Part shown: in pieces, positions 2,297 through 20,195 of the stretch | Layout: the number at the start of each line of letters is the position of its first letter | Numbering within the stretch: the first letter of the stretch is position 1 | Source: Iamia majanohamensis | Lineage (GTDB): Bacteria; Actinomycetota; Acidimicrobiia; Acidimicrobiales; Iamiaceae | Length of the DNA stretch: 64,000 nt | Assembly (NCBI RefSeq): GCF_028532485.1 | Contig: NZ_CP116942.1 | Location: 3,658,001 to 3,722,000, forward strand | Direction of reading: 5' to 3' | The notes under the pieces: generated by a model | What the model was told of the DNA's origin: nothing | Databases searched by the model: none | Seen by the model: the letters and a program-made list of their open reading frames with translations, nothing else | Position numbers and translations under genes: made by a program

Positions 2297-2307
2297 GGGT
2301 GACCTTT

Positions 2308-2916: not shown

Positions 2917-2919
2917 TGC

Positions 2920-3738: not shown

Positions 3739-6700
3739 TTCGGCCCTCCTCCGCATTTGAGTCTTCCACCTCTGGCCGCCAGGTGCTCGTGGTCTGTTGC
3801 GCCGCTCTGATGCTGAGCGCCGAGATAAGCGCCGTCAGGGCTCGAGGTCCGAGCGATTCGGACAACGAGCCGAGCAACTCGTCCGCTCTTTCGAGGACGT
3901 ACTTCCTATCGGCGTCGTCGAGCCAGTGCACATCGACGACCTCGCTCCCGTCCGGCGAGGTGATCGTGACGCGCACGGCCTCGAACCCCTCACGTCCATC
4001 AGCTTCCGACTCGTAGTGGAGCGCCCTCACGCGGCGGAACGTGGCGGCCAGGTCCACCAGCTTGAGGGAGAACCGGCGGACATCGTCGTCGCCCCAGCTG
4101 TTCGGCGGCGTAGCCGTCACCGTGAGTAGCAAAGCTTCAAGCCAGTCGATGTCGTCATCGAACGCCTCGCTCATCGCCTGCTGGATGAAGGGCCTAAGGC
4201 TCCGGTCGATCACCCGGCCGACGAGGGGTCGACAATGGGCTCGCAGGTCAGATCGCAGGTCGCCCAGCTCGGGCACCAGCCTGAACGCTGCTGCCATCGT
4301 GGTGACGAGTTCGTCGAGCATTCGCGGGTAGGCCTGCTGCAGCTCGTCTAACGCCGACCGAACACGCTCGACGAGGACCTCGGCCTGAGCCCGATCGACC
4401 GTCGCGTCGCCGGGGATCGCCGGCATCTCGCAAGCCTCGGGAAGCCTCTCGAAGAGGAGCTCCACCGGATCCCGGGCGTCGATCACTGCGCTCCGGACTC
4501 GCCGGGCGTCGTCGCTCAGCTCAGAGGTCTTGGAGGCATAGGTGGGAAGACCGCGGACCACGTCGAGGATCGGGACGACCGCCCTCAGGACGCTGGCGTT
4601 GCGGGTCGCGGCGGGAAGGCGCGCCGGCTGACCCCCCAGCATCTCCGCCACGAGCGCACGCTGCCCCACCGCAGCAACCCGGCGTGCGCGAAAGCGCTCC
4701 GGAGACTTGATCAGCCGGCTTATCAGCGCCGGTGTCACGGACGGGACGAAGGTGCCGTCCTCGGACACGGCGATGTCGTCGGTGTGCACCAAGAGGTACG
4801 CAGCTAGGAGGACCGGGATCGGACCGCCGGTCAAGCCGATCGGAGGCGCCGCAAGCTCGTCATGCAGGTCCGCGAAACTCACGCCCTCGCGCTCCGCCGA
4901 CGCCAGGGCGGAGTCGAGAGCCGCCCAAGCGGGCTGCCACGTCGAGCCCTCTTCCGGTGCGGCGAACGCCCACCTGTCGTCGCCCGCACCGTGCATCCCC
5001 GTGTGTCGCAGAACGGCTTCGTACATAGCTCGCTCGGGTCCGTAGCCTCCGTCGAGACCGAGGTGTGGTTCCGCTTCACGGGTGAACATCGCCTCGAGAA
5101 GGAGGCGTCGGGCCTTGGCTCCCTGGGAGGTCAGCTCGCGTCGCGCCAGCATCTCGTTCCGCACGTGCGGGGCGTCCGAGTACGCCACGTCGCACACCGC
5201 AGAAAGAAGACGCGACAGGTTGCCGTCAGCCGCGAGGTCCCTGCGATTGGCGACCCATTTCGCCCGGGTGCTGCCCGCCAGCATGCGACCCATGATCAGA
5301 CGAACACGCTCCCGGGCGATCGCCAGGTTCTCTTGCAGCTCGCGCCGGGCAACCCAGTCATCCCGCAGCTCAGCGGCGGCCGACGTCATCAGAGCGGAAA
5401 TGGCGGCCGCCTCGCGCACGGCGAGCTCGAAGTCGGACGACGCCGGCACGGTGACGCACACCAAAGGTCGAGTATCAAGCGTTCGCAGCCGAGGCTGCTC
5501 ATCGGCGAGAGCGATCACCAGCAGCCCATCAGCATCGACGGAGGCGGGCGTCAGGGTGGTGTCCCCCGGACCCAGGAACTGGACCTCGAAGTACCTAAGG
5601 ATGCCAACCTGCTGGCTGTGGCGCCCCGCCACGACCGGACGCAACGGCTGGACCCTGGAGACGATGCTGTCCAGCGGTTTGTGGGCGATCTGCTGTCTGG
5701 CGTCCTCGATCCGTCCAGCGATCGGGAAGTCCGATCCCTGCCAAACGCGATATTCGTCAGCGAAGGCGCGGAAGGATAGGACGCCGCTCGCCTGGAGCTT
5801 CTCGAGCGCGTCCTGGACCTGGCGCCGCCCCCGCTTGTCGCCCTTGCCGAGTGCGGCGGCTACAACCGCTGGGCTCGCCCGCAGAGGACCCCCTGCGGAC
5901 ACGAGGTTCAGAACACCAACGGCCTTGGCGCACCGCTCCTCGATGGGAGATAGGCCCCGGGCGTCGCTCAGCCGTGCGCTGATCTCCAGCCAGCGCGACC
6001 CGTCGCCGCTGGCGCGCACCGTGCTAGTCGTCGACGCCAGGAAGTAATCCCACAGCTCCACCACACCGATCGTCGGAAGGGTGCCGCCCCCGACCTCCGT
6101 CCGGTCCAGCAGATCGGGCATGGCGCCAGGCTCCCGACCAGAGAGGAAGCTGAACATCGTTCGTTCGTTCTGCCCGAGCCGACGGCTGAGATCGGCCAGG
6201 GCGATGGCGGCCACAGGGTTCAGCGGGTAGGCAGTCTCCACCTGGGCCCGGTCCCGTACGAGCCGGGGCACGAGCCCGAGTTGACGGGCCTCCTCAAACG
6301 CTGCCTGTGCCCATTTGTCGAGTCGCTCGCCGAACTTCGGCTGGGCTCGGTCTTGTCGGAGGGTCGTGCCGATGAGCGCGACCGAGTCCGTCACGTCGCC
6401 TACGAAGCTCACCTCTTCGAAGCGACCCTGCACCTTGACCCACTCGCGAACGTGCGCTGCGTCCTTGTCCGAGGCGTACTGCTCGAAGGCGACGTGTTGG
6501 AACGTCACAAGCGCACCGGGTCCGGCGTCCGATCCGCCCAGACGCTCCGCTAGCTCCTGCAGCACGAAGAGATCCGAGGATGGTGAACCAGCGAAGGCCT
6601 CGAGCGACTTGCCGAACTCATCGAGCACCAACATGACGGGCGCCGTCTCACTGATGCGGAGCACCAGCTCAGCAAGGCTCCGTGCATCGGGCGAGCCCGC

Positions 6701-7204
6701 ACGGGCTTCGCGCAGCGCCGTTCGAAGACCTCGCGGCACCTTCCCGCTCCAGAAGCGTTCGACACCGTGATCGAGGGCCCGCACTATCGTCGATGCCACG
6801 GGCTCACGTTGTGCCGTCGCGGTAGCCCTCAGCATCCCGCTGCGGGCGACCCCGAGTGTGTCGAGGACTCCCGCGAAGGCACGCGCCATCTCCTGGTCTG
6901 CGGACTCCAGCGAAGTTCGGGCGGATCGGGTCGCCGGGTCGTCCATCGGTCCGACCAGAGCGTCGAGGAACACGCCGAAGGACGACTTGCCGGATCCGTA
7001 TGGCCCTGTGACAGCGAACGCACGCTGCCCTTTGCCGGGGTGCAGAGCCCTGGTCAGCCGCTGAAGCACCTCGAGGCTGCGGGGGGTCGGAAGGTAGCGG
7101 GCGACGACCTCGACGGTCGGATCGACCTCGAGGTTGACGGCTCGTCGGAAGCCGGACGTCGTGCTCACGAGGTCAGCAAGCACGGCGGGCTCACCTTCCT
7201 TCAT
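3731..7204 (-). CDS. sspC: SspC-like large P-loop ATPase
   Basis: An 1157-residue cytoplasmic ATPase, the energy-using subunit expected in an Ssp phosphorothioation complex. An N-terminal NTPase domain shows Walker A GPYGSGKSS at 67-75 and Walker B VMLVLDEFGK at about 190-199. The remaining 800 or so residues are mostly predicted helical and carry no motif I recognise. The ATG overlaps the sspB stop by 4 bases (ATGA) and its stop overlaps the sspD GTG start, so translation is coupled through the operon. It also resembles in a general way the large ATPases of BREX-like systems; the DUF4007 and PAPS reductase neighbours decide for SspC. Confidence 0.78.
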   Translation of the reverse strand: MKEGEPAVLADLVSTTSGFRRAVNLEVDPTVEVVARYLPTPRSLEVLQRLTRALHPGKGQRAFAVTGPYGSGKSSFGVFLDALVGPMDDPATRSARTSLESADQEMARAFAGVLDTLGVARSGMLRATATAQREPVASTIVRALDHGVERFWSGKVPRGLRTALREARAGSPDARSLAELVLRISETAPVMLVLDEFGKSLEAFAGSPSSDLFVLQELAERLGGSDAGPGALVTFQHVAFEQYASDKDAAHVREWVKVQGRFEEVSFVGDVTDSVALIGTTLRQDRAQPKFGERLDKWAQAAFEEARQLGLVPRLVRDRAQVETAYPLNPVAAIALADLSRRLGQNERTMFSFLSGREPGAMPDLLDRTEVGGGTLPTIGVVELWDYFLASTTSTVRASGDGSRWLEISARLSDARGLSPIEERCAKAVGVLNLVSAGGPLRASPAVVAAALGKGDKRGRRQVQDALEKLQASGVLSFRAFADEYRVWQGSDFPIAGRIEDARQQIAHKPLDSIVSRVQPLRPVVAGRHSQQVGILRYFEVQFLGPGDTTLTPASVDADGLLVIALADEQPRLRTLDTRPLVCVTVPASSDFELAVREAAAISALMTSAAAELRDDWVARRELQENLAIARERVRLIMGRMLAGSTRAKWVANRRDLAADGNLSRLLSAVCDVAYSDAPHVRNEMLARRELTSQGAKARRLLLEAMFTREAEPHLGLDGGYGPERAMYEAVLRHTGMHGAGDDRWAFAAPEEGSTWQPAWAALDSALASAEREGVSFADLHDELAAPPIGLTGGPIPVLLAAYLLVHTDDIAVSEDGTFVPSVTPALISRLIKSPERFRARRVAAVGQRALVAEMLGGQPARLPAATRNASVLRAVVPILDVVRGLPTYASKTSELSDDARRVRSAVIDARDPVELLFERLPEACEMPAIPGDATVDRAQAEVLVERVRSALDELQQAYPRMLDELVTTMAAAFRLVPELGDLRSDLRAHCRPLVGRVIDRSLRPFIQQAMSEAFDDDIDWLEALLLTVTATPPNSWGDDDVRRFSLKLVDLAATFRRVRALHYESEADGREGFEAVRVTITSPDGSEVVDVHWLDDADRKYVLERADELLGSLSESLGPRALTALISALSIRAAQQTTSTWRPEVEDSNAEEGRSA

Positions 7205-8304
7205 GCCACAACCCCCTCAAGCAGCAGCAGCTCCGCGTCGATCGCCGCCACGTGCGAGGTCGCTCTGAGTACATCGATCGTGTCGCTCTGCTCCGTCAAG
7301 GTCTGCCTAGCCTTCTTGAGCTCAGACGTGCGCGTTCCCACCATGCTCTCCCACGAGCGCACATCTGCGGCCCTCTCGAAATGAACACCAAGCAACTTGT
7401 GACCGACCGGCGCCGGCGAATCGTTCACGTGGAGCTGACGAAGGCCCGCAGGCTCGGCGACCGAGAGGTCGGCGTCTGAGGTGCTCACGCGCTCGAGCGC
7501 TTCGAAGAGCGCACGTTCACCGACCTTGAAGGCCTGCCCCGGCGAACCGGGGTCTCGGGCGAGGCGAGCGAGGCTGATCGAGCGAGCGCCCGGCGACACG
7601 CGAGCCATGAACATCAGCGAGGCATACGCGATCACCTCGTCCGGCAGTGTGGCCTTAGGGGCGGTGTTGAACCGGTACCGCCGAGCCTCACCCTCGACCG
7701 CTTCGATCAGCCCCAGGTCCCGGAAGGGGCAATCCAGCAGATCGTCGAGACCCTGCCGGCCCGAACTCCGTGACGCGTAGGTGCGCAGGACGCAATCCGC
7801 ATCCTTCTTGATGGACCCCGGCACGACGTTGTCCCAACCTTCGAAAGACCGGACGGCCTCGGCGATGCACTCCGCCAGCACGGTGTCGTCGAACTGCTGA
7901 GCATCGAGGAGGTTGAACGCGACCCACCAGGAAGGTGCAAGGCACGGAGGCTGCAGAAGGTTCCAGTGGAGCACCCATAGGGTCGCCGGGTCCTCGACGA
8001 ACGGGTCCCACCCGCCTTCGTCGAAGATGGCTCGGGCAAGGGGCGTGGGTACGTAGCGCTCGATCCGATCGCCCGGCCGCTTGTACGGCGCAAGGACCCC
8101 GAACGCCACCGACCAGTATCGGATGGCGTTCACCATGTTCTTGCCGACCCCGAGCGCGACGGTCGCATCAGAGCGGTGGAACACGGACTCCGCCGACGGG
8201 TCGTTGCGCTCGTAGGCCTTGCGTAGCCAGCCGAAGCGCGGGTGAAAGGTCTCGTGTCGAGCGAAGGACGGCTCGCACCACTCTCCAAGGTCGACGGCCC
8301 TCAT
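7201..8304 (-). CDS. sspB: SspB-like DUF4007 protein
   Basis: A 367-residue protein with the N-terminal signature of DUF4007: FARHETFHPRFGWLRK near residues 14-29, then VALGVGKNMVNAIRYW about 20 residues later. DUF4007 genes are typically linked to PAPS reductase-like genes, and SspB of Ssp systems belongs to this family as I recall it, where it is reported to nick DNA. The start ATG overlaps the sspA stop by 4 bases, and the stop overlaps the sspC start in the same way. A short coiled-coil-like stretch (RTSELKKARQTLTEQSD) lies near the C terminus. No classical nuclease motif is evident to the eye. Confidence 0.8.
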   Translation of the reverse strand: MRAVDLGEWCEPSFARHETFHPRFGWLRKAYERNDPSAESVFHRSDATVALGVGKNMVNAIRYWSVAFGVLAPYKRPGDRIERYVPTPLARAIFDEGGWDPFVEDPATLWVLHWNLLQPPCLAPSWWVAFNLLDAQQFDDTVLAECIAEAVRSFEGWDNVVPGSIKKDADCVLRTYASRSSGRQGLDDLLDCPFRDLGLIEAVEGEARRYRFNTAPKATLPDEVIAYASLMFMARVSPGARSISLARLARDPGSPGQAFKVGERALFEALERVSTSDADLSVAEPAGLRQLHVNDSPAPVGHKLLGVHFERAADVRSWESMVGTRTSELKKARQTLTEQSDTIDVLRATSHVAAIDAELLLLEGVVA

Positions 8305-9473
8305 GACGCGTTCCTGGCCGGCAGCGACTCAGAACGAGCCGCCCGCACAGCGTCGGTCACGAGAATGACGGCCCGGTCGATCTCCTGCTCCGTGGTGAAA
8401 CGGCCGACGCCGAAGCGGAGGGCGCTGAGCGCCTCGTCGTAGGAGCGTCCGATGGCGAGCAGGACATGCGATGGCGCCGGGCTCGCAGAGCTGCACGCGC
8501 TCCCGGTGGAAGCTGCCAGCTGGGGCATCCTGAGCAGCAGGTCCTCGCCATCGACGCCTCCGAAGCAGTAGCTCCGGTTTCCAGGAAGGCGATCGGAGAT
8601 CGGCCCGTTGAGGATGACGTCGCCCACTCCCATGACGCCGGCGTGGAGCCGCCCGGCCAACCGCTCCAACTCGGGCTCCTCGACACCCAACACCGATCCA
8701 GCTACCTCGCAGGCCCGACCAAGGCCGACCACCCCCGGGACGTTGAGCGTTCCGCTCCGCAGGCCGCGTTCGTGCCCACCACCGTGGATGATCGGCTCGA
8801 TAACCGCCTGTCCCCGGCGGCTCACGTGCACCGCACCCACTCCCTTGGGGCCGTACAACTTGTGGGCAGAGAGGGTGAGGAAGTCGATCTCGGACGCACG
8901 GACCGAGATCGGGAGCCTTCCCACACCCTGCGTGGCATCGCAGTGAAAGAGGGCGCCACTGGCATGAGCGATGTCGGCGATCTCGGCCACCGGGGCGACC
9001 GTCCCGATCTCGTTGTTCGCAAGCATCACTGACACCAAGGCCGTTCTGGTCGTGACCTTTGCTCGGAGGTCATCCAGGTTGATCCGACCGTCGGTATCTA
9101 CATCGACCAGGGTCAGCTCGGTCCCGGACTTCGCCATCGCTGCAACCGTGTCCAGCACCGACAGATGCTCCGTGCGGCACACCACCACGTTCGGCCGGCC
9201 GACCTCATAGCCTGCCGCACCCTGGAGGACGAGGTTGTTGGCCTCCGTCGCTCCGCTGGTGAAGACGACGCCGCTCGGGCGACCGTCGATGAGGGCTCCG
9301 ACGCTGTCGCGAGCGTCATCGACGGCGAGAGCGGCTCGCCGGCCAGCGAGATGGTGGCTCGAGGCGTTGCCGAAGTCGCCTGAAAAGAAGGGGAGCATCG
9401 CATCGAGGACGATCGGGTCCACCGGTGTCGTGGCCTGGTGGTCCAGGTAGATCAGATCGGTCGACTGCGGCAC
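8301..9473 (-). CDS. sspA: SspA/DndA-type cysteine desulfurase
   Basis: PLP-dependent cysteine desulfurase that would supply sulfur for DNA modification. The class V aminotransferase fold is evident from YLDHQATTPVDP at the N terminus, the PLP lysine in SAHKLYGPKG (K205) and the persulfide cysteine in STGSACSSASPAPSH (C327). I chose the GTG at 9473 (390 residues), which places YLDHQATTP at the usual distance from the start and leaves 10 bases after the stop of the preceding small gene; a longer frame overlaps that gene and adds residues with no family match. It could in principle serve general iron-sulfur assembly, but its 4-base overlap with sspB ties it to the Ssp operon. Confidence 0.88.
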   Translation of the reverse strand: MPQSTDLIYLDHQATTPVDPIVLDAMLPFFSGDFGNASSHHLAGRRAALAVDDARDSVGALIDGRPSGVVFTSGATEANNLVLQGAAGYEVGRPNVVVCRTEHLSVLDTVAAMAKSGTELTLVDVDTDGRINLDDLRAKVTTRTALVSVMLANNEIGTVAPVAEIADIAHASGALFHCDATQGVGRLPISVRASEIDFLTLSAHKLYGPKGVGAVHVSRRGQAVIEPIIHGGGHERGLRSGTLNVPGVVGLGRACEVAGSVLGVEEPELERLAGRLHAGVMGVGDVILNGPISDRLPGNRSYCFGGVDGEDLLLRMPQLAASTGSACSSASPAPSHVLLAIGRSYDEALSALRFGVGRFTTEQEIDRAVILVTDAVRAARSESLPARNAS

Positions 9474-10150: not shown

Positions 10151-10462
10151 TCACCGGGCAAGCCCTGCGACACGTTGTGGACGGTGGCGCGCCTGCGTGC
10201 TGTCGAGGGCTGAACGAGCCGCCTCGACTCGATCCCGCACCCACAGCTCCTGCTCACCAGCGGAGGCGACGCGGCGAAAGCCAGCTGTCCCGAGCGCGAC
10301 TCGGGTGCGATCGCCGATGTCGGAGTCGGTCCTGACGAGCTGGTGGCGCCGCGGGTCGTAGACCACCTCGACCTGCTTGCCGCCCCAGAGCCCTGCCGGC
10401 TCCGCCACCCAGCCGACCGGAGCAAGGCGGCCCCTGTCGACGGGACGCATGAACGGCTTCAC
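10151..10462 (-). CDS. Small unknown protein coupled to the T4 coupling protein gene
   Basis: A 103-residue basic protein with no recognised domain. Its ATG overlaps the stop of the coupling-protein gene by 4 bases, so it is translated with that gene and probably belongs to the transfer module. It contains a run that reads like a beta-rich core (GGKQVEVVYDPRRHQLVR) and a helical tail. About 270 bases separate it from the small gene ahead of sspA, with no convincing gene between. Confidence 0.55.
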   Translation of the reverse strand: MKPFMRPVDRGRLAPVGWVAEPAGLWGGKQVEVVYDPRRHQLVRTDSDIGDRTRVALGTAGFRRVASAGEQELWVRDRVEAARSALDSTQARHRPQRVAGLAR

Positions 10463-12270
10463 CGACCCCGCTCCCCTCGCTCAGGTAGCGGCAGAGCGGC
10501 CCGGCGAGCCAGATGCCGGGAGCGGTGGAACGGCCGGCTCCGTACGTGCGCCGGCGGGAGGGTCCCGTGCACGAGCAGGGCATCCCCGGGTCGCATCTGG
10601 CGCAAGACGTGGGGAGGTGCGAGGGGCGTTCGGGCCGTCGAAAGCTGCATCGAGCCTCGACCACCGCCGTCGCCAACTGACCGGGAGCGCGAATCGACCT
10701 CGGCCTCGCCGAGGATCTGGCTCACGTACTTCAACGAAGCGCCGTCCGACAGCCCGGCGTAGAAGAGCTTGCTCAGGTGGTTCGTGAGGATGGTGTCCGC
10801 CGACCGCCCGTGGGACGACTCGATCTGTGCGAGCGACTGCCAGATCGTCACCAACAGCACGCCGAGCCCGGCCAAGGTCGACGCGTACTCGGCCAGCGCC
10901 CGCAGCGGCGTGTTGCCTGCCTCGTCGATGACGATCAGCAGGGGCGGATCGAGCGGCTTCCCGGTAGCCGCGACGTGGCGATACACCTGGGCCACGAGGT
11001 CGTTGAGCAGGCCGCCGAAGGCTGGCGCCAGGCGGCGTTGATCCTCGATCGGCGAGCAGAGGTACAGGCTGTTCGGGCCGCTGAGGAGCCAGGCCAGGTC
11101 CACCCCGGCCGCATCGGCCTCGCAGCGGCGGGAGGATGCCGCCACGTCCGGATCGGACCAGGGCCACACCACCGTCTGAGCCGTGGCATAGACGCTGGAT
11201 CGGGTTCGCTCGTCCATCTCCCAAACGGCCACCAAACCCTGGGACGCATCGGTCGCACCGAGCGCCACCTCGTCGTCCTCATTGACCATGAAGGCGTCGA
11301 GCGCGGTGCGGACCTCACCGGGCCCGAGCTCGCCCGGCTGGTCCTGGCGGAGGACCCACTCGCAGACCGTCCCCATGTCCCGCTGGGCGTGATGCGCGAC
11401 CCACAGCAGGCCCGAGAGGAGGATCTCCGACTGCGACAACCAGAAGTCCAGGCCACCCTCGACCCCACCCCGAGGAGCCGCGTCGCAGAGGGCACGTGCT
11501 GCTCGCTGCGCACCCGAGATGGTGCCGGCGCCATCGACGGGTGACCACCGGGCCTCTGCCCCGATCTGCCTGGTCGACCCCGTCGGGTCGTAGACCCGCA
11601 CCTCACCGAGCGTCGACCGCCAGCCGGCGGTGGAGCCGAGCAGATCCGCCTTCACCGAGCTGAGGACAGCGGGGCCGTCCCACTCGAGGATCCCCGACAC
11701 CGCCGCGCTCGTCTTGCCTGACCTCGACGGGCCGACGAGCGCCACTGCCCCTCGATCGCCGGCACGCCGCGTCGACCACCTCGAGCGGCCCTCACGACGG
11801 ACCTCTGTGGCGACGAGCCAGCGGCCGAACCGGGCGAGGATGAACCGGCCCGACGCCGGGCCACGCACGAGTACCGGCGCAAGGTCCCGCCGGCGGGCGA
11901 AGGCGGGTCGCGCATCGACGCCCAAGGGTCGGCGCTTCGACGTCCCCACCCGCGACCAGCGCGACCAACGAAGGACGACGGCGCCGAGCACCACAAGGGC
12001 CGCGGCGACGAGCCCCGTGCAGGCCCAGTAGGTGACCGGGCCCGGCAGCTCACCGGCCAGGGGTGGGCCCCACGCCTGAGCCGGATCACCCATCCGGTCA
12101 GGCATCCGACCGAGCGCCTGCCCGGCCTCGTTGATGCCGACCAGCTGCGGCGCACCGGCCACGGCCAGCGCCAAGACCGCGCCCGCCCACACGACGCCAA
12201 GGAGGCCCAGCGTCACGCCTGCCCCAAAGAGGACCAGAACCTCGAACCCACTCAGGCCGTCGTGCTGCAC
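10459..12270 (-). CDS. VirD4/TraG-type coupling protein of a conjugation system
   Basis: A 603-residue membrane-anchored ATPase that would deliver DNA to the transfer channel. Two hydrophobic segments lie at about residues 10-40 and 80-100, Walker A GPSRSGKTS at about 180-188, and Walker B LLIVIDEAGN in the C-terminal half, followed by a WQSLAQIES segment typical of TraG/VirD4 proteins. It is the second gene of a leftward pair with the HTH gene at 12569 and overlaps the following small gene. The C-terminal tail is rich in Arg and Pro and could bind DNA or a relaxosome partner. No relaxase gene is seen in the window. Confidence 0.88.
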   Translation of the reverse strand: MQHDGLSGFEVLVLFGAGVTLGLLGVVWAGAVLALAVAGAPQLVGINEAGQALGRMPDRMGDPAQAWGPPLAGELPGPVTYWACTGLVAAALVVLGAVVLRWSRWSRVGTSKRRPLGVDARPAFARRRDLAPVLVRGPASGRFILARFGRWLVATEVRREGRSRWSTRRAGDRGAVALVGPSRSGKTSAAVSGILEWDGPAVLSSVKADLLGSTAGWRSTLGEVRVYDPTGSTRQIGAEARWSPVDGAGTISGAQRAARALCDAAPRGGVEGGLDFWLSQSEILLSGLLWVAHHAQRDMGTVCEWVLRQDQPGELGPGEVRTALDAFMVNEDDEVALGATDASQGLVAVWEMDERTRSSVYATAQTVVWPWSDPDVAASSRRCEADAAGVDLAWLLSGPNSLYLCSPIEDQRRLAPAFGGLLNDLVAQVYRHVAATGKPLDPPLLIVIDEAGNTPLRALAEYASTLAGLGVLLVTIWQSLAQIESSHGRSADTILTNHLSKLFYAGLSDGASLKYVSQILGEAEVDSRSRSVGDGGGRGSMQLSTARTPLAPPHVLRQMRPGDALLVHGTLPPAHVRSRPFHRSRHLARRAALPLPERGERGR

Positions 12271-12365: not shown

Positions 12366-12569
12366 TTAGCGAAGCCGCCCGGTTGCCCTCGCCCAAGCCT
12401 CGATCTCGGACCAGAGCCAGATGCGGAGCCTGCCGAGGGTGGCGACGGGTGCGGGGAAGTCCTCGTGTCGCTCTCGGAGCTTGTGGACGTTCTGACTGTG
12501 CGACAGGCCGAGGCGCTCGGCGATGAGCACGGCATCGACCAGGTCACCCGCGTCGACCATGCGTCCCAC
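12366..12569 (-). CDS. Small helix-turn-helix protein (AlpA/excisionase-like)
   Basis: A 67-residue protein with one winged HTH of the MerR/AlpA kind: IAERLGLSHSQNVHKLRER followed by DFPAPVATLGRLRIWLWSEIEAWA. Such proteins act as excisionase-like recombination directionality factors or as small regulators on mobile elements. It reads toward the coupling-protein gene 95 bases downstream and away from the rightward cassette at 12717, so it may control the intergenic region between 12570 and 12716, where direct repeats of CGTTGAC are found. Confidence 0.7.
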   Translation of the reverse strand: MGRMVDAGDLVDAVLIAERLGLSHSQNVHKLRERHEDFPAPVATLGRLRIWLWSEIEAWARATGRLR

Positions 12570-12622: not shown

Positions 12623-12655
12623 TGGTGTGCGCGTCGACACCCCGAGAGCGTGAGT

Positions 12656-12686
12656 GGCCCCGGCGCAGCTGGAACTGCCCGGGGCC
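12656..12686 (+). promoter_or_regulatory. GC-rich hairpin ahead of the rightward cassette
   Basis: Perfect 8-base arms GGCCCCGG (12656-12663) and CCGGGGCC (12679-12686) enclose a 15-base loop. It ends 30 bases before the ATG at 12717 and has no U tract, so a 5'-leader structure or protein-binding site is as likely as a terminator. Confidence 0.4.
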
Positions 12687-12716
12687 GTGGCCGAACCCTG
12701 ATTGGAGGGCCCGACG

Positions 12717-12929
12717 ATGGCTGAGATTACGCGCGCACGCTCACAGCGTGTGACTGCTCAAGGCGTCCCACAGCCCCGGTATTCGAGGTCCCGTGAGGGC
12801 AGCGACGTCGTCCCGCGGACATCGGAACCTCCCTCGCCTCGACCGTGGGCAATGTCCGTCGAACACGAGGGCCTGTTTCCCCACGTCTACGAGGAGGGCC
12901 AGGCCGATGTCTCGATCGACCCCTCGTAG
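12717..12929 (+). CDS. Small unknown protein, first gene of rightward cassette
   Basis: A 70-residue protein without a recognised domain. The ATG at 12717 is preceded by a GGAGG ribosome site (12702-12708 region). The N-terminal half is basic and the C-terminal part acidic (MSVEHEGLFPHVYEEGQADV). Its end overlaps the next gene start by 23 bases. Together with the next two genes it forms a cassette inserted between leftward transfer genes. Supported by ribosome site and coupling rather than by homology. Confidence 0.45.
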   Translation: MAEITRARSQRVTAQGVPQPRYSRSREGSDVVPRTSEPPSPRPWAMSVEHEGLFPHVYEEGQADVSIDPS

Positions 12930-13260
12930 GCGCTGCTCGCCAGCGGCCTCCCGTCCAGGTGCAGCCGCCGGACGGGGGGTCGCTGGCACCCCCATAGGCG
13001 CGATCACCAGATCGCCCGACGCGCCGCCGTCCGCACTGCCGTGGCAGGTGGAGGTCGTCCTGTTGGCCGAGCCGTACCTCTGCATGGCGAGCGGCCGCCC
13101 GTTGCACCACCTCGCACTGATGCTGACCCCGACTGCTCTGGGTCCCTTCAGCCGGCCGATCCTCCTCGACCCGGCTCTGCTCTCCGGCCTCATCGACTCG
13201 GCGATGACGGTTCTCGAAGCCGGCATCGATTTCGTCACCGAGGAGGACGAGGAATGGTGA
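12907..13260 (+). CDS. Small unknown protein, second gene of cassette
   Basis: A 117-residue protein starting at ATG 12907 after a GAGGAGG ribosome site. The first 45 residues are Arg/Ala/Pro-rich; the rest is more protein-like (QVEVVLLAEPYLCMASGRPL, then FSRPILLDPALLSGLIDSAM) and ends in a very acidic tail (FVTEEDEEW). Its stop overlaps the next start in ATGGTGA. No family recognised. Confidence 0.5.
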   Translation: MSRSTPRRRCSPAASRPGAAAGRGVAGTPIGAITRSPDAPPSALPWQVEVVLLAEPYLCMASGRPLHHLALMLTPTALGPFSRPILLDPALLSGLIDSAMTVLEAGIDFVTEEDEEW

Positions 13261-13508
13261 CGGTCCCAGGCGCTCAGCTCCGACCTCAGGGTTTCACCTC
13301 TGCGTCCTTCCGCGTCGCAGGTTGGCGCTACATGGGGGCCGAGATCAACTACGAGCAGACGATCGCCGTCGCAAGCCGCCCACTGTTGTTCGCAGCGCTG
13401 GCTGGCACGAGCGCAATGGTGAATCGACGACGACGGCTCGAAGCTGCTCGCCTCGCCGCGCCTCAGTGGCGCCTGCTCGGCGACGTCACAGTCGTGGCTG
13501 AGGAAGGC

Positions 13509-13533
13509 GGGACTGCCGCGCGGCGGGGTGACA
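13509..13533 (+). repeat. IS left inverted repeat
   Basis: Matches the reverse complement of 14759-14783 in its outer 14 and inner 7 bases with a few mismatches between. Confidence 0.85.
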
Positions 13534-13579
13534 TCTGATCTGTGGTGCCGGGAGGTGCTGCAGGGAGAGGATGTGCACC

Positions 13580-13867
13580 ATGCCCAAGCCGTACCCCAGG
13601 GAGTTCCGGGATGAGGTCGTCCGGGTCGCGTTGAACCGGGAGGAGGGTGTTCGGATCGCGGACATCGCTCGGGACTTCGGGATCACCGAGTCGTGTCTCG
13701 GGAACTGGCTCGCAGACGCCCGCCGCGACGGGCGCGAGCCCGAGGCCCGCAGTGAGATGGCCGAGCTCCGGGAGGCGAAGAAGCGGATCCGCCTCCTCGA
13801 GCAGGAGAACGAGGTCCTGCGCCGAGCAGCCGCGTACCTGGGGCAGGCGAACCTCCCAAAAGGCTGA
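13580..13867 (+). CDS. IS3-family transposase OrfA
   Basis: A 95-residue protein with an N-terminal HTH (FRDEVVRVALNREEGVRIAD, then IARDFGITESCLGNWL) and a C-terminal leucine-zipper-like helix (KKRIRLLEQENEVLRRAAAY), the standard OrfA layout. I prefer the ATG at 13580 because the GGGAGAGG ribosome site abuts the alternative ATG at 13571. The frame ends LPKG-stop at CCAAAAGGCTGATG; the A4 run and the TGATG overlap offer either a -1 frameshift or re-initiation into orfB. Confidence 0.9.
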   Translation: MPKPYPREFRDEVVRVALNREEGVRIADIARDFGITESCLGNWLADARRDGREPEARSEMAELREAKKRIRLLEQENEVLRRAAAYLGQANLPKG

Positions 13868-14751
13868 TGTACCCGCTCGTGCGCGAGCTCGCCGTCGACG
13901 GGATCCCCGTCGCGGTGTCGTGTCGGGTACTCGGTCTCGCTCGCCAGCCCTACTACCGGTGGCTCGCCACGCCGATCATGGACAGCCAGCTGGCCGAGGC
14001 CTACCTGGCCAACGCGATCCACGACGCCCACCGCGACGACCCCGAGTTCGGCTACCGGTTCCTCGCCGATGAGGTCCGCCGGATCGAGGAGCACGCAGCC
14101 GTGTCGGACCGGGTGGTGTGGCGGATCTGCCGCGACAACCAGTGGTGGTCCCGGTTCGGCAAGCCCAAGCGGGGCAAGGGCTCCAGGCCGGGGACACCGG
14201 CCCATGACGACCTCGTCTGCCGGGACTTCACCGCGGATGCCCCGAACCAGCTGTGGCTCACGGACCTGACCGAGCACCGCACCGCCGAGGGCAAGCTCTA
14301 CCTCTGCGCCATCAAGGACGCGTTCTCGAACCGGATCGTCGGCTGGGCCATCGACGAGCGCATGAAGGCCCGCCTCGTCGTGTCGGCGATCGAGATGGCC
14401 GTCGCCCGCCGAGACGGTGACGTCGCCGGCTGCATCCTTCACAGCGACAGGGGCAGCCAGTTCAGAGCTCGAAAGGTGCACCGGACCCTGGCCCGGCATC
14501 GGATGGTCGGCTCCATGGGCCAGGTCGGCGCAGCCGGCGACAACGCCGCCATGGAATCGTTCTTCGCACTCCTCCAGAAGAACGTCCTCGACCGGCGCCA
14601 TCGCTGGGACACCCGCGACCAGCTCCGCATCGCCATCGTCACCTGGATCGAACGGACCTACCACCACCGACGCCGCCAGGCCCGCCTCGGCCGATTGACC
14701 CCCATCGAGTTCGAGATGATCATGACCCCCCAGACGGCAACCGCCGCCTGA
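13867..14751 (+). CDS. IS3-family transposase OrfB (DDE)
   Basis: A 294-residue protein with the rve integrase core: first Asp in WLTDLTEH, second Asp in HSDRGSQF, Glu in NAAMESFFALLQ, spaced as in IS3-family transposases, and the C-terminal LTPIEFE motif. It lies in the -1 frame relative to orfA and could be made as an OrfAB fusion or on its own from the ATG inside TGATG. It appears full length and intact. Confidence 0.93.
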   Translation: MYPLVRELAVDGIPVAVSCRVLGLARQPYYRWLATPIMDSQLAEAYLANAIHDAHRDDPEFGYRFLADEVRRIEEHAAVSDRVVWRICRDNQWWSRFGKPKRGKGSRPGTPAHDDLVCRDFTADAPNQLWLTDLTEHRTAEGKLYLCAIKDAFSNRIVGWAIDERMKARLVVSAIEMAVARRDGDVAGCILHSDRGSQFRARKVHRTLARHRMVGSMGQVGAAGDNAAMESFFALLQKNVLDRRHRWDTRDQLRIAIVTWIERTYHHRRRQARLGRLTPIEFEMIMTPQTATAA

Positions 14752-14758
14752 CCAACCG

Positions 14759-14783
14759 TGTCACCTCCACGCGCGGCAGTCCC
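14759..14783 (-). repeat. IS right inverted repeat
   Basis: Reverse complement begins GGGACTGCCGCGCG and ends GGTGACA, pairing with 13509-13533. Followed by the GGC target duplication. Confidence 0.85.
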
Positions 14784-15111
14784 GGCCGTCTCCTAGTCCT
14801 GCACGAAGGTGAGTGGGCATCGGTGTGGTTCGACGCAGTCATTGACGTGTGGCGCCACGGGGACGGAGCCGTCACCTTGCTCTTCGCCGATGACCCTCCC
14901 TATGCCTTCACCGGTGGGTGGGCAGGGCAGGTTGCGCTTGTCCTCGAACATGCGCTCTCTGCGCGACATCACCGGTTAGCGACCTGACGGGATAAGGGGA
15001 GCAACCGCCGTCCGTATGCTCGACCTCAACGGTCGCCACTTGGCGGTCGGAAGGTCGGCTTGACCCCCCGGGCCACCCAAGACTCCGACTTGGAGCGTTG
15101 GAGACTGGAAG

Positions 15112-16038
15112 GTGTACTTGTGCGCCGTGGCCCGACTGCCGGATCCAATGCTGGCGCAGACCGGCGTGCACCGGACCGGGTCTCGGGTGGTCGCCGAGGT
15201 CAAGTACGACGGCTGCCGGGGGATCGTTGCCGTCGACGGACACCGCATCCGGGCCCGCTCTCGACCGGGGTCCAGCATGGTTGGTTGGTTCCCAGAGCTC
15301 GGCAGCCTCGCTAAGGATCTCGCCGGCCGTCGGGTGGTGCTCGACGGCGAGGTGATCGCGGCCGATCCCTCCGGGCGCCCGGACTTCGGGCGCTTGCAGC
15401 GCCGGATCGGGCGCACTCCTCGACGGCTCGTTGGACTTGACCCCGTGCGCTTCGTCGCCTTCGACGTCCTCAGCGTGGACGGCTCGTCCGTGTGCGACCG
15501 TCCCTGGCAACAGCGGCGCGAGCTGCTCGAGGAGCTGGGCGAAAGCGCTGGCCCGCAATGGCAAGTCGCCCCCGTGTTCGACGACATCGATGCCGCCGTC
15601 GACGCCACCTCCGAGTTCGGCCTCGAGGGAGTGGTCGTAAAGGACCGGTCGGCGCCGTACCGCCCGGGTCAGCGGACCCGCGCGTGGATCAAGGTCAAGC
15701 ACACCACGGTCAGCCGGTTCGTGGTCGGGGGATTGGCCACGACGTCACGCTGCCGGGATGCACTCCTCGTAGGCGACCTCCTGCCCGACGGACGGATCGC
15801 CTACCGAGGCTGCGTCGAGGTAGGGACTGCGAAGGGCCGGAGGGCGGAAGCCGCACACCTCCTGCGGCAGGCGACGACCGAGGCCAGCCCCTTCGACTCT
15901 CCCCCCGGCTTCTCCCAGGTCGTCTGGGTCGAGCCCTTACTCATCGTCGAGGTCCGCCACCTGGGCACCACGCGAGGTGGGCGGCTTCGGGAGCCGATGC
16001 TGATGGCACCGGTCGACGTGGTCCGGGGCGGCTTGTGA
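15112..16038 (+). CDS. ATP-dependent DNA ligase (LigC/LigD ligase-domain type)
   Basis: A 308-residue DNA ligase with adenylation and OB domains only. Visible motifs: adenylated Lys in EVKYDGCRG near residue 30, motif III VRFVAFDVL, motif IV LEGVVVKDR, and motif V RAWIKVKH. The N terminus matches the LPDPMLAQTG start seen in bacterial LigC-like enzymes. The GTG at 15112 is a weak choice; a slightly later start is possible. No Ku or polymerase gene is next to it. It lies between the IS-broken cassette and the transfer genes and may repair nicks made during transfer or by the phosphorothioation system; that link is speculation. Confidence 0.85.
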   Translation: MYLCAVARLPDPMLAQTGVHRTGSRVVAEVKYDGCRGIVAVDGHRIRARSRPGSSMVGWFPELGSLAKDLAGRRVVLDGEVIAADPSGRPDFGRLQRRIGRTPRRLVGLDPVRFVAFDVLSVDGSSVCDRPWQQRRELLEELGESAGPQWQVAPVFDDIDAAVDATSEFGLEGVVVKDRSAPYRPGQRTRAWIKVKHTTVSRFVVGGLATTSRCRDALLVGDLLPDGRIAYRGCVEVGTAKGRRAEAAHLLRQATTEASPFDSPPGFSQVVWVEPLLIVEVRHLGTTRGGRLREPMLMAPVDVVRGGL

Positions 16039-16371: not shown

Positions 16372-17424
16372 TCAGCGAACGAGGCTCCGACCGACGCTCT
16401 CCAGCCGCCGCGCATCTGCGACCGCCGCCTCGAGCTGCGTGGGCCAATCGTTGGATCCCACCATCCACTCGTTGAGGTCGCCGCCAGGCGGGCGCACGTT
16501 GAGCGCAGTGCGGTGATGGGCCTTCAGGAGCTCGCCGAGGTGGGCGGCGCTCCGCTGGCCCTTGCCCTCCTCGGGGTCGAAGGCCATCACGAGTGGGGCC
16601 GGAAGTCGGGCGAGGGCCAGAGCGTGGGAGGCATCCGGGCATCCGGTCCCGAAGAAGGGGACAGCGACGTACCCCGCCGCTGCGGCGGAGAGCCCATCGA
16701 TCGCTCCCTCGGTGATCACGATCTCGTCGTGAAGCCGTTGAGCGGGCTCGTACCTGCACATGCGCGGGCTCGGTGCGAGGTCGTAGGCCGGGTTGAGGTA
16801 CCGGGTCCGACCGGGACCTGGACGCATGACCCGGATGTGGGCGTAGATCGGTTGGCCGTCGACGATGGTCGGAAAGACGGCACCGGCGGCTCGTGGCATG
16901 CCGTCGGGACGGAACTGACGGCGCGATCCCGTATCAGCCCCGATCTCGTTGACGCGCAGGACATCCTCGGGCAGGCCGCGCTCGTCGGTGAGCCAACGAA
17001 GGACCGGCGCGCCCGCTGGGGTCCAGAGCGTCGCGGCGCACTCCCGTGCGTAACGCGCCAATCCCTCGGGATGCCGCTCGCAACGAGGCCGGGGAGGGCG
17101 GCGTGCCAGCCCGACCACGGCGTCGTCCGGGCGCTGGCCGGCCCTCGCGGCCAGGTAGTCGAATGCGCTCCGGACGCTCCCTCCATGGACGGCGAGCACC
17201 AGGTCGATGGCCGTGCCGCCCGTGCCGCAGCCGAAGCACCCCCAGCGTTGCTCACCCCATCGCGTCGTGTAGATGCCGAGAGGCGGCGTCCGTCCCGTCT
17301 GCGCATGGTTCGGGTTCGGGCACGGCCAGGTCGCCGATCGCTCCGTGCCGTGGTGTGGGCCCAGCAGCTCGTCGGCGAGCGCCTCGAGCGACACCGAGGC
17401 CAGGAGGGCAGAGCGGTCGTACAC
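16372..17424 (-). CDS. DNA primase-like protein (CHC2 zinc finger plus toprim)
   Basis: A 350-residue protein. The N terminus carries a CHC2-type zinc ribbon (CPNPNHA, then WGCFGCGTGG); a toprim core follows with EIVITEGAIDGLSA and VMAFDPEEGKGQ. Such primases on conjugative elements prime replication of transferred single-stranded DNA. It follows the VirB4-like gene by 3 bases and is the last of the leftward transfer operon running from 22585. The helicase-binding domain of chromosomal DnaG is absent, which fits an element-borne primase. Confidence 0.85.
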   Translation of the reverse strand: MYDRSALLASVSLEALADELLGPHHGTERSATWPCPNPNHAQTGRTPPLGIYTTRWGEQRWGCFGCGTGGTAIDLVLAVHGGSVRSAFDYLAARAGQRPDDAVVGLARRPPRPRCERHPEGLARYARECAATLWTPAGAPVLRWLTDERGLPEDVLRVNEIGADTGSRRQFRPDGMPRAAGAVFPTIVDGQPIYAHIRVMRPGPGRTRYLNPAYDLAPSPRMCRYEPAQRLHDEIVITEGAIDGLSAAAAGYVAVPFFGTGCPDASHALALARLPAPLVMAFDPEEGKGQRSAAHLGELLKAHHRTALNVRPPGGDLNEWMVGSNDWPTQLEAAVADARRLESVGRSLVR

Positions 17425-17427
17425 GCC

Positions 17428-18723
17428 TCATGCCGCTTCGGATCGGCCCTGCATCCGGGCATCGGTGTCGGTGAGGGGCGCCTCGCCCGGAGCGAGCAGG
17501 TGCTGGACGAGGGCGCTGCGACCGCCGATGTGCCAGAGGGCGCGGCCCCGAGCGAGCTGCCCGACGACGCGCGTCTCCGGCTCGGTCAGGCCGAAGTGCG
17601 TCGCGGCCGCGCTGAGCTGGTCCGGTGCCTGGCGCAGGATGATCGTCGTCGCCGCGTCGGCGAGGAGGCCGGCGGCGATCTTGGCTGTGCTGGTTCCGTC
17701 GTCGGCCTGGGCGGCGAGGTCGGAGGCCCTGTGGGCGACGCAGAGGTTGGCGACGCCGTACGTCCGGCCGAGCTTGCATGCGCTCTGGAGGTAGGCCGCG
17801 GTGTGGCGGTTGGCGAGGAGCGCCCAGGCCTCGTCGAGCACCTGCATGCGTTGCGGCCCGGGGCAGGCCATCAGCTGCTGGAGCCAGCCGGCCGCGGCGA
17901 CCATCACGAGTGGCAGAGCGTCGGAGTCGACGGGGACGCCGGAGAGGTCGAGCACGAGACCCGGGCCATCCCAGCGGAGCGGGACGGTCGACGGTCCGTC
18001 GAACATGCCGCGCAGCGATCGAGTGAGGAGCTTGTCGAGCGCGTAGGCGACGGCGGACGCGTCGACCGCGACCTCCTCGCTCGTGCGACGGAGACGGGTC
18101 GCCATGTCGGCGGTGGGGGCCGTGAGGAGTCGTGCGACATCGACGAGGGTCGGTTCCGACCCCGTCGAGGACTGGCGGAGCTGCTCGACCGCGGCGAACG
18201 TGGCCGCGTCCTCGATCGGGCTCAGCGAGCGTTCGAGGACCGTGGCGACGAGGGCCGTGCACATCTCGGCCTGACGGATGGTCTGCTTCGAGGCGGGCTC
18301 GTGGTCGGCGGCCGGGCCAGGGGCGAGCGGGTTGATGCGCACCGTGCCGCCAGGGCTGAGGCGGATGACGGTGAGATCGAGGCGCTCGGCGAGCACGCTG
18401 TACTCGCCCTTCGGGTCGACGACCGCGAACCACCGACCGGTGGGCCCGGTTCCGTAGACCGCGGCCTGGCGCCACAGCAACGTCTTGATGAGCGCCGACT
18501 TGCCGTTGCCCGGTTCACCGAGAACCCAGGCGTTCGGGTTCGTGATGTGGCCCTGGGCATAGGAGTCGAACGGATCCCAGTAGAACGCGCCGTTGCCGGC
18601 CAGGAGGTCGAGGCCGACGTACGTGCCCCTGTGACCGAGGCTCGTCTGGACCGAGAACGGGTAGAGCGAGCAGACGTGGGCGGTGGTGCCGCGGTGCAGC
18701 GGGATGCGCAGCGTGGGTCTCAC
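17428..18723 (-). CDS. VirB4/TraE-like conjugation ATPase
   Basis: A 431-residue ATPase that would power the mating channel. Walker A GEPGNGKSA is at about 69-77, a DPKGEYS segment follows, and Walker B appears as QVLDEAWALL with a downstream R-T-Y-G-V sensor-like region, all typical of VirB4. Start is the GTG at 18723 inside GTGA, overlapping the stop of the SCO6880-like gene; the larger open frame upstream is a shadow of that gene. In actinomycete elements the N-terminal VirB4 half is often a separate protein, and here the upstream gene fills that place. Confidence 0.87.
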   Translation of the reverse strand: MRPTLRIPLHRGTTAHVCSLYPFSVQTSLGHRGTYVGLDLLAGNGAFYWDPFDSYAQGHITNPNAWVLGEPGNGKSALIKTLLWRQAAVYGTGPTGRWFAVVDPKGEYSVLAERLDLTVIRLSPGGTVRINPLAPGPAADHEPASKQTIRQAEMCTALVATVLERSLSPIEDAATFAAVEQLRQSSTGSEPTLVDVARLLTAPTADMATRLRRTSEEVAVDASAVAYALDKLLTRSLRGMFDGPSTVPLRWDGPGLVLDLSGVPVDSDALPLVMVAAAGWLQQLMACPGPQRMQVLDEAWALLANRHTAAYLQSACKLGRTYGVANLCVAHRASDLAAQADDGTSTAKIAAGLLADAATTIILRQAPDQLSAAATHFGLTEPETRVVGQLARGRALWHIGGRSALVQHLLAPGEAPLTDTDARMQGRSEAA

Positions 18724-20195
18724 GACGTGAAGAGGGTCGAGGGCGCGAGGCCCAGGGGCAGAGCGGCGGCCCAGGCGACGTCCTGGCGCGCGTCGAGGAC
18801 CCGGATGTCCATCCCATGCTCTCGTGCCAGCTGCTCCACGATCTCGCCGTGCTCGTCGAGCAGTTCGAGGCTCGGCGCCGACACGGTGACCAGCCCTGCG
18901 TAGGCCACCTCCGGGTAGCCGGCGACGAGCTCCTCCTCGCGGTCGAGGATGGCCTGGGTAGCCCGACGGTGTCGTGCATCGACACGCCGCCCCTTCTCCT
19001 CCCGGGTCGTCGCGTCCGAGTCCAGCTTGACCAGGTCCCGTTCGATGCGCCGGCGGCTCTGGTGGGTGGGGACCGGCACCAGGACCACTGTCATGGCACG
19101 CGTGATGCCGCCAGCAGCGAGGAACGGCTCGAGCCAGCTCGGGGCGACAGCGAGGCGCGGCCAGCTCCCGATCCACCAGGTGCGGTGCCACGCCGAGTCG
19201 ACACGGACCTCGTGCCATCTGGACTCGACGGCCAAGGGACCAGCGGTCGATGCGACCACGTGCTGGAGGCGATCGGCCAGTCGCCCGGCCAACGGACCCT
19301 GCTTCGTTGCGTGCGGAGCGATGCGAAGGCGAACGAGGCGTTGGAGCGCTCTCGGGTCCAGAGGCTCCGCGGCCGTGAGCCCGGCTGCACGCAGCCCGCG
19401 CAGCAGCGCCTCCACCGATGTGACCAGTGCTCGTGAGAAGCGATCCTCGGCATCACCACCCTGGCGTCCGAGCCGGTCGCGGGCGACCGTGAGCGTGACG
19501 ACGACCTCGTGGGAGGTGGTGGCGTCGGCCCCGCGCCGGAGGAGCTCCCGGTAGGACGACTCGGCCTCGGGGTGAGGCGTGTCCCGGTCGTGGTGCTCCA
19601 ACCAGGCGGTGTGCTCCTGGAGGCCCGCAGGACGGGCCAGGTCGGACCACGCGAGGTGGGCGACGACGCTGCGCTCGACCGCGAACTGTGCGAGGAGGTC
19701 GCCCCACCCGGCGAGCAGACGCTCTTGCTCGATCGCCGGTTGGACCACGAACTCGGGCCCGGTGACCGGGACCGCGACGGTCAGGGTCGAGCGCTGGTGG
19801 TCTCTCACCGCGCCGAGGTCGCCGGTGGCCCGCCAGTCGATCGGAACGATCTCGAGCCCGTCCAGGCACGGCGGGGCCGGCGCGGGGTCGACCGTTGGCC
19901 ACAGCGGGAGCGCCGCGTGCCAACGTCGCCCGCGCCGGCATCCGGCCCATGACCACTCGACGAGGAGCGGGACCCACTCCCATACGGCGCGACCGCCGAT
20001 GCGACCGAAGGCCACGGCCACTGCGGTCAGGAGCGGCGCCGCCGCCACCGGCACGGGCGCACCAGCGCTGATGGCGAGGACCGCTCCCAGGATCCCTGCT
20101 CCGAGCACCACGCACTGGAGGACGCCCAGGCCCAGGAACACGCCCGACTGGTCCAACGGTTCCAGTCGGTAGCTACGGGCGGGGGTCTCAGACAT
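18720..20195 (-). CDS. SCO6880-like conjugation membrane protein
   Basis: A 491-residue protein with two hydrophobic helices near residues 15-60 (GVFLGLGVLQCVVLGAGILG onward) and a long soluble part without nucleotide-binding motifs, matching the SCO6880 family that partners VirB4 ATPases in actinomycete ICEs. The ATG at 20195 overlaps the previous stop in ATGTCTGA; longer upstream sequence in this frame is Arg/Pro-rich shadow. Its stop overlaps the VirB4-like GTG, so the two are co-translated. Confidence 0.8.
   Translation of the reverse strand: MSETPARSYRLEPLDQSGVFLGLGVLQCVVLGAGILGAVLAISAGAPVPVAAAPLLTAVAVAFGRIGGRAVWEWVPLLVEWSWAGCRRGRRWHAALPLWPTVDPAPAPPCLDGLEIVPIDWRATGDLGAVRDHQRSTLTVAVPVTGPEFVVQPAIEQERLLAGWGDLLAQFAVERSVVAHLAWSDLARPAGLQEHTAWLEHHDRDTPHPEAESSYRELLRRGADATTSHEVVVTLTVARDRLGRQGGDAEDRFSRALVTSVEALLRGLRAAGLTAAEPLDPRALQRLVRLRIAPHATKQGPLAGRLADRLQHVVASTAGPLAVESRWHEVRVDSAWHRTWWIGSWPRLAVAPSWLEPFLAAGGITRAMTVVLVPVPTHQSRRRIERDLVKLDSDATTREEKGRRVDARHRRATQAILDREEELVAGYPEVAYAGLVTVSAPSLELLDEHGEIVEQLAREHGMDIRVLDARQDVAWAAALPLGLAPSTLFTS

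Follow-up and report, generated by a model that had tools for sequence, protein, structure and literature searches.

We analyzed a 64,000-nucleotide stretch of Iamia majanohamensis DNA (the window below; part of a single 4.58-Mb contig), in which three overlapping rightward open reading frames (12717-12929, 12907-13260 and 13254 onward) stand amid leftward transfer genes, as an earlier note on this DNA had described. The most interesting part of the region lies outside the scope of that note, in a leader of 65 nucleotides (nt) that ends at the start of the first frame, here called gene 1. By comparing sequences across the phylum, we show that this leader is a conserved element, predicted to form two hairpins, which recurs in Actinomycetota and often precedes mobile-element genes. 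On balance, we favor a joint reading in which the leader encodes a cis-antisense RNA that silences mobile-element genes, and in which the stretch would be a decayed accessory operon of an Iamia conjugative element of the type IV secretion system (T4SS) type with this regulatory RNA module at its head. The leader and its immediate surroundings comprise the following features.

12654..12718, no strand assigned: leader of two hairpins, 65 nt, ending at the start of gene 1 (covariance model and covariation)
12656-12686: hairpin H1, a GC stem with a variable 6-nt loop
about 12691-12714: hairpin H2, which holds the Shine-Dalgarno sequence of the downstream start
12724..12729, minus strand: predicted -10 box TAATCT (TANNNT) of a leftward antisense promoter, within the first codons of gene 1
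12366..12560, minus strand: AlpA-like small helix-turn-helix (HTH) gene, divergent from the leader (gene call; Pfam AlpA E 0.018, below cut-off)

The intergenic stretch ahead of gene 1 contains a 49-base block that is identical in L008, a locus from Iamia sp. SCSIO 61187, a degree of conservation far above that of the neighboring genes. Its inverted repeat consists of invariant arms around a varying 6-nt center; with at most 3 mismatches, the repeat pattern was found at 8 places in three of four genomes of the genus, and the backward control pattern at none. In seven aligned examples, the inverted repeat is followed by a second hairpin across the ribosome site. The covariance model R1, which was built with the window's sequence, scored the window's leader at 88.4 bits (cmsearch, E 9.9e-15). 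A search of the order with this model recovered the element in 48 of 397 genomes and 40 of 203 genera at E 0.01, and in 31 genomes at E 1e-4. A second model, applied to the phylum, matched 29 of 198 genomes at E 0.01 (15 at E 1e-4), with 22 of the 29 lying outside the class and five belonging to the order, which had been searched before or overlap that set. These E-values are rough, and weak matches may be due to chance in GC-rich DNA. The leader pattern was also present in 4 viral contigs, all of which the covariance model matched too.

Both hairpins are supported by covariation. In an alignment of best-match loci from the order (A13, 34 rows; as a rule one locus per genome rather than every match), 96.8% of cells were paired and 15 of 22 pairs showed compensatory changes, with a covariation score of 0.340 compared to 0.100 for shuffled controls (0/500) and at most 0.087 for slid ones. 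The corresponding score in 22 further rows (A14) was 0.337, compared to 0.096 shuffled and at most 0.039 slid. Furthermore, RNAalifold, given the same alignment and no structure, recovered H1 and the core of H2. A start codon was found at a fixed place behind the element in 30 of the 34 A13 rows and 14 of the 22 A14 rows, and the genes that it opens include those of integrases, resolvases, excisionase-like and HNH proteins. Among 17 downstream proteins chosen for a Pfam search, 8 belonged to the integrase, resolvase, HTH_17 (excisionase-like) or HNH families, one of the integrase matches being below the cut-off. Another copy of the leader in the window's own genome (L163, about 858145) has prophage-like genes around it, among them, as judged by eye, ones for HNH-like and terminase-like proteins.

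Rfam 15 gave no matches in the window at the gathering score and none near the cut-off in E-value scans of 17 other loci (6 + 11), and no description of the leader was found in the short result listings of the open-access literature. BLASTN of the leader against phages yielded only a 37-bp match (E 0.6), and against plasmids 11 records, of which only an Iamia plasmid was convincing (E 9e-24; the rest E 0.2 or worse). We also asked whether the inverted repeat could be an att site for recombination and rejected this, since it occurs once per element in the genomes G000 and G002 and not at two ends.

To assign the leader to a strand, we used the rows of both alignments that carry a start codon at the fixed place: 41 of the 56 have this codon and enough upstream sequence, and the 40 that also have 90 nt downstream, some of which share a genome, were used for the counts of box, loop and folding. 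Behind the start codon, outside the model, 35 of 40 rows retain an A at +8 and TA at +12/+13, whereas the same pattern reached at most 2 of 40 rows at 76 other offsets. On the opposite strand this reads TANNNT, which we take to be the usual actinobacterial -10 box, and its position at +8..+13 would place the start of a transcript at about the start codon. The whole leader folds more stably on the opposite strand in all 40 rows, by a mean of 6.8 kcal/mol, the controls being 30-nt segments only, and H2 forms an unbroken helix on that strand in many rows. Where the loop lies, 31 different strings occur among the 40 rows, so that the leader presents the covarying stem and variable loop that are looked for in a cis-antisense RNA. 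In addition, the plus strand is rich in A immediately 5' of H1 (0.38-0.39, compared to 0.20-0.24 further out), and an antisense RNA would therefore meet some U after a strong hairpin, a weak terminator at best. We considered and rejected a forward -10 box at a set distance from H1, as no single distance had it in more than 4 of 40 rows, with TANNNT present anywhere in the preceding 100 nt in 30 of 40.

Several observations weigh against the antisense reading of the leader. No transcript has been observed on either strand, the antisense direction being read here from the promoter-like box and the folding, and no spacing behind the box gave a -35-like sequence in more than 1 of 40 rows. The antisense U-tract after H1 is weak (34 of 40 rows have 2 to 4 U in the 8 nt), and the loops are not random, many of them ending in AA. 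Taken by itself, H2 is more stable in the antisense direction in 29 of 40 rows (mean 3.0 kcal/mol), and 30-nt controls are so in 26 of 40 (mean near zero). The pair counts lean to the model, because both alignments were fitted to it. Four of the 34 A13 rows and 8 of the 22 A14 rows lack a start codon at the fixed place, and some matches are probably due to chance; among the 17 downstream proteins, one is a pilus protein and 8 have no Pfam match. Finally, in sense-strand H2 the cells with G-U pairs exceed those with A-C by 48 to 4 in A13 and 21 to 4 in A14, which favors the sense strand; nearly all of the 48 G-U cells of A13 fall in the outermost pair and in two pairs with the ribosome site.

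These G-U counts bear on the alternative that the leader acts on the sense strand as a translational switch, in which H2 would hide the ribosome site and H1 would bind a protein or ligand, as in riboswitches and ribosomal leaders. In favor of this, the leader lies directly 5' of the start codon with the Shine-Dalgarno sequence inside H2, and the stems covary in both alignments. However, among 14 rows that were inspected, many have A-C mismatches that break the sense-strand helix and are G-U pairs on the other strand, the conserved ANNNTA in the start of the coding region plays no part in a sense switch, and the variation of the loop leaves no fixed ligand site visible there. We therefore regard a sense-strand switch as rather unlikely. 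Somewhat less credit still is due to the idea that the leader serves the divergent alpA-like gene as its promoter and 5' leader, carried on a leftward mRNA that overlaps the rightward gene incidentally. This would account for the TANNNT box on the opposite strand, and by eye an AlpA-like gene lies upstream of the leader in 23 of 34 loci; yet such a gene was not seen in the other 11, two of which are cut by contig ends, and 7 of the remaining 9 retain the start codon at the fixed place.

The antisense reading that we favor may be pictured as follows. RNA polymerase would start leftward at about the start codon of the gene, and the resulting antisense RNA, with a length of about 65-75 nt or more, would cover the ribosome site and both hairpins, ending at H1 or continuing into the divergent alpA-like gene. 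It would pair with the sense leader through the variable loop, and as a result little integrase, excisionase or regulator would be translated before induction of the element. The variable loop would thereby confer element-specific recognition. At the present locus the operon behind the leader has lost gene 3, of which the same genome has an intact paralogue in a second element.

The nearest described elements that we found are the SAS/ESAS of cluster K mycobacteriophages, in which an inverted repeat with a variable spacer immediately precedes a conserved AGGAG-containing sequence, itself placed a few bases ahead of the start codons of phage genes (Pope 2011, PMC3203893; also PMC7302621, PMC12699233). 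In the portions of these papers available to us, they are defined by a 13-bp GGGATAGGAGCCC-like sequence that stands 3-7 bp 5' of the start and is itself preceded by 17-bp inverted repeats, and their layout is the same as that of the leader. The sequences differ, and we rejected identity of the two, as the model had no significant match in 30 kb of phage Anaya (best E 0.21). Moreover, in the accessible text the SAS/ESAS authors report little support for pairing of the repeats (PMC3203893), whereas pairing in the leader covaries; as far as that text describes the phage elements, the leader is further set apart by its opposite-strand TANNNT box and by carriers in many Actinomycetota genomes.

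Antisense control of this general kind is known from FinP/traJ, CopA, RNA I and RNA-OUT, where stable stem-loops with a variable loop, antisense to a translation start, control genes of mobile elements. Unlike these antisense RNAs of plasmids and transposons, the leader appears as one conserved cassette on unrelated genes, with a promoter-like box in the first codons. The opposite strand of one locus (L114) gave a FinP match at E 1.3, which is not significant.

Behind the leader, the three frames and an insertion sequence (IS) within the third are arranged as follows.

12717..12929, plus strand: "gene 1", a 70-codon deletion fusion (blastn and global alignment against L007 and L008)
13048..13260, plus strand: conserved core of gene 2, 70 codons (coding score; the longer frame begins at 12907)
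13254..13508, plus strand: 5' part of gene 3, 85 codons, with a hydrophobic segment, a basic stretch and the start of a PH-like domain
13506..13508 (left) and 14784..14786 (right), no strand: GGC target-site copies (read from the sequence)
13509..14783, plus strand: IS3-type insertion sequence, 1,275 bp (inverted ends, Pfam matches of orfA and orfB, other copies)
13571..13867, plus strand: IS orfA (HTH_Tnp_1; Pfam)
13867..14751, plus strand: IS orfB (rve integrase core; Pfam)
14787..14987, plus strand: 3' part of gene 3, 66 codons and stop, with the rest of the PH-like barrel and a C-terminal helix (profile searches)

Members of the IS3 family carry an orfA with an HTH, an orfB with an rve core, terminal inverted repeats and a 3-bp target duplication, and all of these were found in the window's IS. 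Its inverted ends measure 26 nt and are 88% complementary, and its boundaries are backed by 80%-identical copies in two other genomes of the genus, which align over positions 1-1275. Removing the IS and one GGC restores an open frame, with 85 codons before the insertion and 66 and a stop after it, in agreement with the earlier note. That note had also suggested a search for uninterrupted homologues of the joined product, and this search returned proteins that cross the junction. They are L003/L007, with 70% identity over the first part, L004/L008, and the own-genome paralogue L002/L011, which lies in the second element between primase and traG genes; the outcome that the note had named as refuting, a lack of such proteins, thus did not occur. 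Three profile searches placed the two pieces one after the other along the intact family, at 19-106 and 106-179, at 27-115 and 117-187, and at 39-115 and 116-193. The ratio of nonsynonymous to synonymous substitution rates (dN/dS) against L007 and L008 was 0.25 and 0.27 for the 5' part and 0.38 and 0.23 for the 3' part; with both halves at 0.23-0.38, the gene was therefore under purifying selection for much of its history. As judged from these comparisons, gene 3 was intact before the IS arrived, as had been proposed. A frameshifted homologue in another locus (L029, around 8001-8580) is a second case of loss.

One might suppose that gene 3 belongs to a toxin-antitoxin system, since its relative in L008 has a VbhA antitoxin tail and precedes a Fic gene (PF18495 E 1.8e-9, PF02661 E 3.5e-6), and the plasmid record carries the label "antitoxin VbhA family protein". 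This is quite improbable: apart from the copies of L008, no VbhA tail was seen in the homologues whose C-termini were inspected, the Fic frame of L008 is broken by an in-frame stop (VbhA-tailed gene and Fic at L008 9937-11284), and L007, L008 and the window have different genes behind gene 3, a pattern that an insertion hot spot would be expected to give. In the window, Pfam found neither VbhA nor Fic domains in the gene-3 pieces, and a DNA ligase gene occupies the place of the Fic gene. As described in the part of the source available, VbhTA/FicTA modules occur on conjugative plasmids (PMC5675462), and L008 likewise combines a VbhA domain with an adjacent Fic gene in a conjugative element; it differs from those modules in that its VbhA is fused to a PH-like protein.

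The order of genes in L008, from the same genus, is a 139-codon HTH gene (HTH_31 E 7.6e-12), a 147-codon gene, gene 2 and gene 3. Compared with the Iamia relatives, the first ~45 nt of gene 1 align with the start of the HTH gene, to about 12761, and its last ~48 nt, from 12882, align with the end of the following gene. Between the aligned ends there are ~120 nt in the window compared to ~763 in L008, and thus about 640 bp have been lost. Since its two ends align with two genes that are separate in L008, gene 1 is, on this alignment, a deletion scar in which the start of an HTH-regulator gene is joined to the end of the next gene. The 70-codon gene 1 was absent from both relatives compared, and was itself queried only against Pfam and NCBIfam; a profile of the second fused gene (147 codons in L008), searched against the genome that the window comes from, found nothing at E 0.001. 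Gene 2 is real, with 81% and 71% identity to the relatives over its core and dN/dS of 0.18 and 0.22. Its start position is uncertain: the gene caller places it at 13048 within the longer frame 12907-13260, and the segment 5' of 13048 is open in the relatives under weaker constraint (dN/dS 0.34 and 0.51). It was found in 3 of 248 genomes of the order, namely its own, G002 and one more at E 9.7e-4. Gene 1, gene 2 and both gene-3 pieces had no match at E 1 in Pfam and NCBIfam.

By eye, a purine-rich ribosome site precedes every start, as the earlier note had stated; of the three genes that it counted, genes 2 and 3 stand and gene 1, as a deletion fusion, does not. Good ribosome sites, overlapping frames and intact gene-3 homologues notwithstanding, the picture of a free-standing, working cassette of three genes whose sole damage is a recent IS is most improbable, as gene 1 fuses two genes and its short frame exists in neither relative compared, and the frames are instead what remains of an accessory operon of the conjugative element. 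From the alignments, the decay of the operon is one deletion and one IS insertion.

Gene 3 was followed further as a protein family. Profile searches recovered it in 14 of 397 genomes of the order and 4 of 396 genomes of the phylum, with distant relatives in 7 of 61 genomes of a large-genome genus of the phylum. A scan of named genomes matched 101 stretches, 7 of which are relatives of gene 3, six labeled Acidimicrobiia, Acidimicrobiales or Microthrixaceae and one Phycisphaerales. We rejected a plasmid- or phage-wide family, with 0 relatives in 13 pattern-matched viral-contig stretches and one plasmid record. A T4SS backbone gene lies nearby in 14 of 26 gene-3 loci with longer flanks; several of these loci come from one genome (L007-L010 from G002, L009 being a near-copy of L008), the 3-kb loci L070, L072 and L073 and the duplicates L026, L050 and L051 are omitted, and the T4SS match of L074 is a TrbL-like one (24% identity, E 7e-7). 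By sequence, the family recurs in Acidimicrobiia elements, where its gene lies antiparallel to the transfer genes, between traG and primase genes. In another genome of the order, a relative (L052, 8070-8453) lies between genes that read by eye as rpoC and rpsL.

The conserved domain of the family starts at AAPQWR and is predicted to have seven strands and a C-terminal helix. A model of this domain, cropped from the relative L024 rather than from the split protein of the window, had a mean predicted local distance difference test score (pLDDT) of 78.3 and a predicted TM-score of 0.66, and showed the seven-strand barrel and helix. Nearly all of the 50 matches listed by Foldseek against the PDB were PH, FERM or PTB proteins, including the bacterial 3dcx, with TM-scores up to about 0.5, and the best VIA-align Z was 7.2, which is middling. 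According to the model, gene 3 likely has a PH-like fold, an assignment that rests on topology and on the uniform list of fold matches, the Z values being middling. In several members, a hydrophobic stretch and then arginines precede the domain, which suggests that the protein may contact the membrane, and gene 3 most likely encodes a membrane-near accessory, or possibly regulatory, protein of the transfer apparatus. Against this stand the 12 of 26 loci with no T4SS gene nearby, the lack of a Foldseek match at E 0.001 or a VIA-align Z of 8 for the domain, and the poor full-length model (pLDDT 41.8), which was not taken into the fold search. The gene-3 pieces and relatives matched no bacterial PH family of Pfam at cut-off, and a query of PDB sequences gave one row at E 1.9, which we took as chance. 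The bacterial PH domains of PF08000/DUF1696 (PMC2817789), as the available part of that paper describes them, share the predicted seven-stranded barrel and C-terminal helix, and 3dcx is among the Foldseek matches listed; relative to that description, the gene-3 family has an extra N-terminal hydrophobic and basic segment and sits in conjugative elements.

The frames are surrounded by the following genes of the element.

10459..12270, minus strand: traG/virD4-type coupling protein gene (Pfam T4SS-DNA_transf E 3.6e-29)
15112..16038, plus strand: ATP-dependent DNA ligase gene, cargo 3' of gene 3 (Pfam)
16372..20195, minus strand: primase-like, VirB4-type and SCO6880-family transfer genes (NCBIfam)

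A coupling protein, a VirB4-type ATPase and a SCO6880-family protein, the components by which an actinobacterial SCO6880-type T4SS is recognized, are thus all present in the window; SCO6880_fam is above its NCBIfam cut-off, and the dnaG and VirB4-type matches are below theirs (VirB4-type E 6.3e-18, under the curated cut-off). The DNA ligase had no tblastn match at E 1e-4 across the 26 gene-3 loci. The left part of the element (window 1013-9473) holds matches to SspA, SspB, SspC and SspD and a DndB-like gene, that is, a phosphorothioate-type defense system. At L008 5952-8292, ThiF-type and Mov34/JAB-type genes beside traG are a candidate ubiquitin-like defense cargo in the same hot spot. A conserved gene of the transfer region (window 22691-23743; L101 19639-20691), labeled vanY resistance in a plasmid table at 28.86% identity, is more likely to encode an enzyme that acts on the cell wall as part of the transfer machinery than to confer resistance. 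The chromosome of G002 carries two related conjugative elements at a distance of 77 kb (C1:3962696 and 4039736; loci L007, L008 and L009, together with plasmid NZ_CP050949.1). In the stretch compared, the 77,252-bp plasmid NZ_CP050949.1 is most similar to L008 as far as about 16.5 kb and identical to L007 from there on; by this pattern it looks like a recombinant of the two chromosomal elements, and recombination between tandem elements could have excised it as a circle.

For the element's transfer functions, our results point to the PH-like family, as yet without a name, as an accessory protein that recurs in conjugative elements of actinobacteria. For the leader we suggest, more tentatively than for the antisense mechanism itself, that it may be a portable antisense cassette with its promoter box in the first five codons, which silences recombination and regulatory genes across conjugative elements, prophages and transposon-like units of Actinomycetota, with the loop as a recognition code for each element. 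If this is true, one small RNA module would set the switch-on of very different mobile elements in a large phylum, and the leader would serve as a sequence handle on the regulated genes of unannotated elements. It would also offer a directly testable idea of how silencing or incompatibility between elements could be made element-specific.

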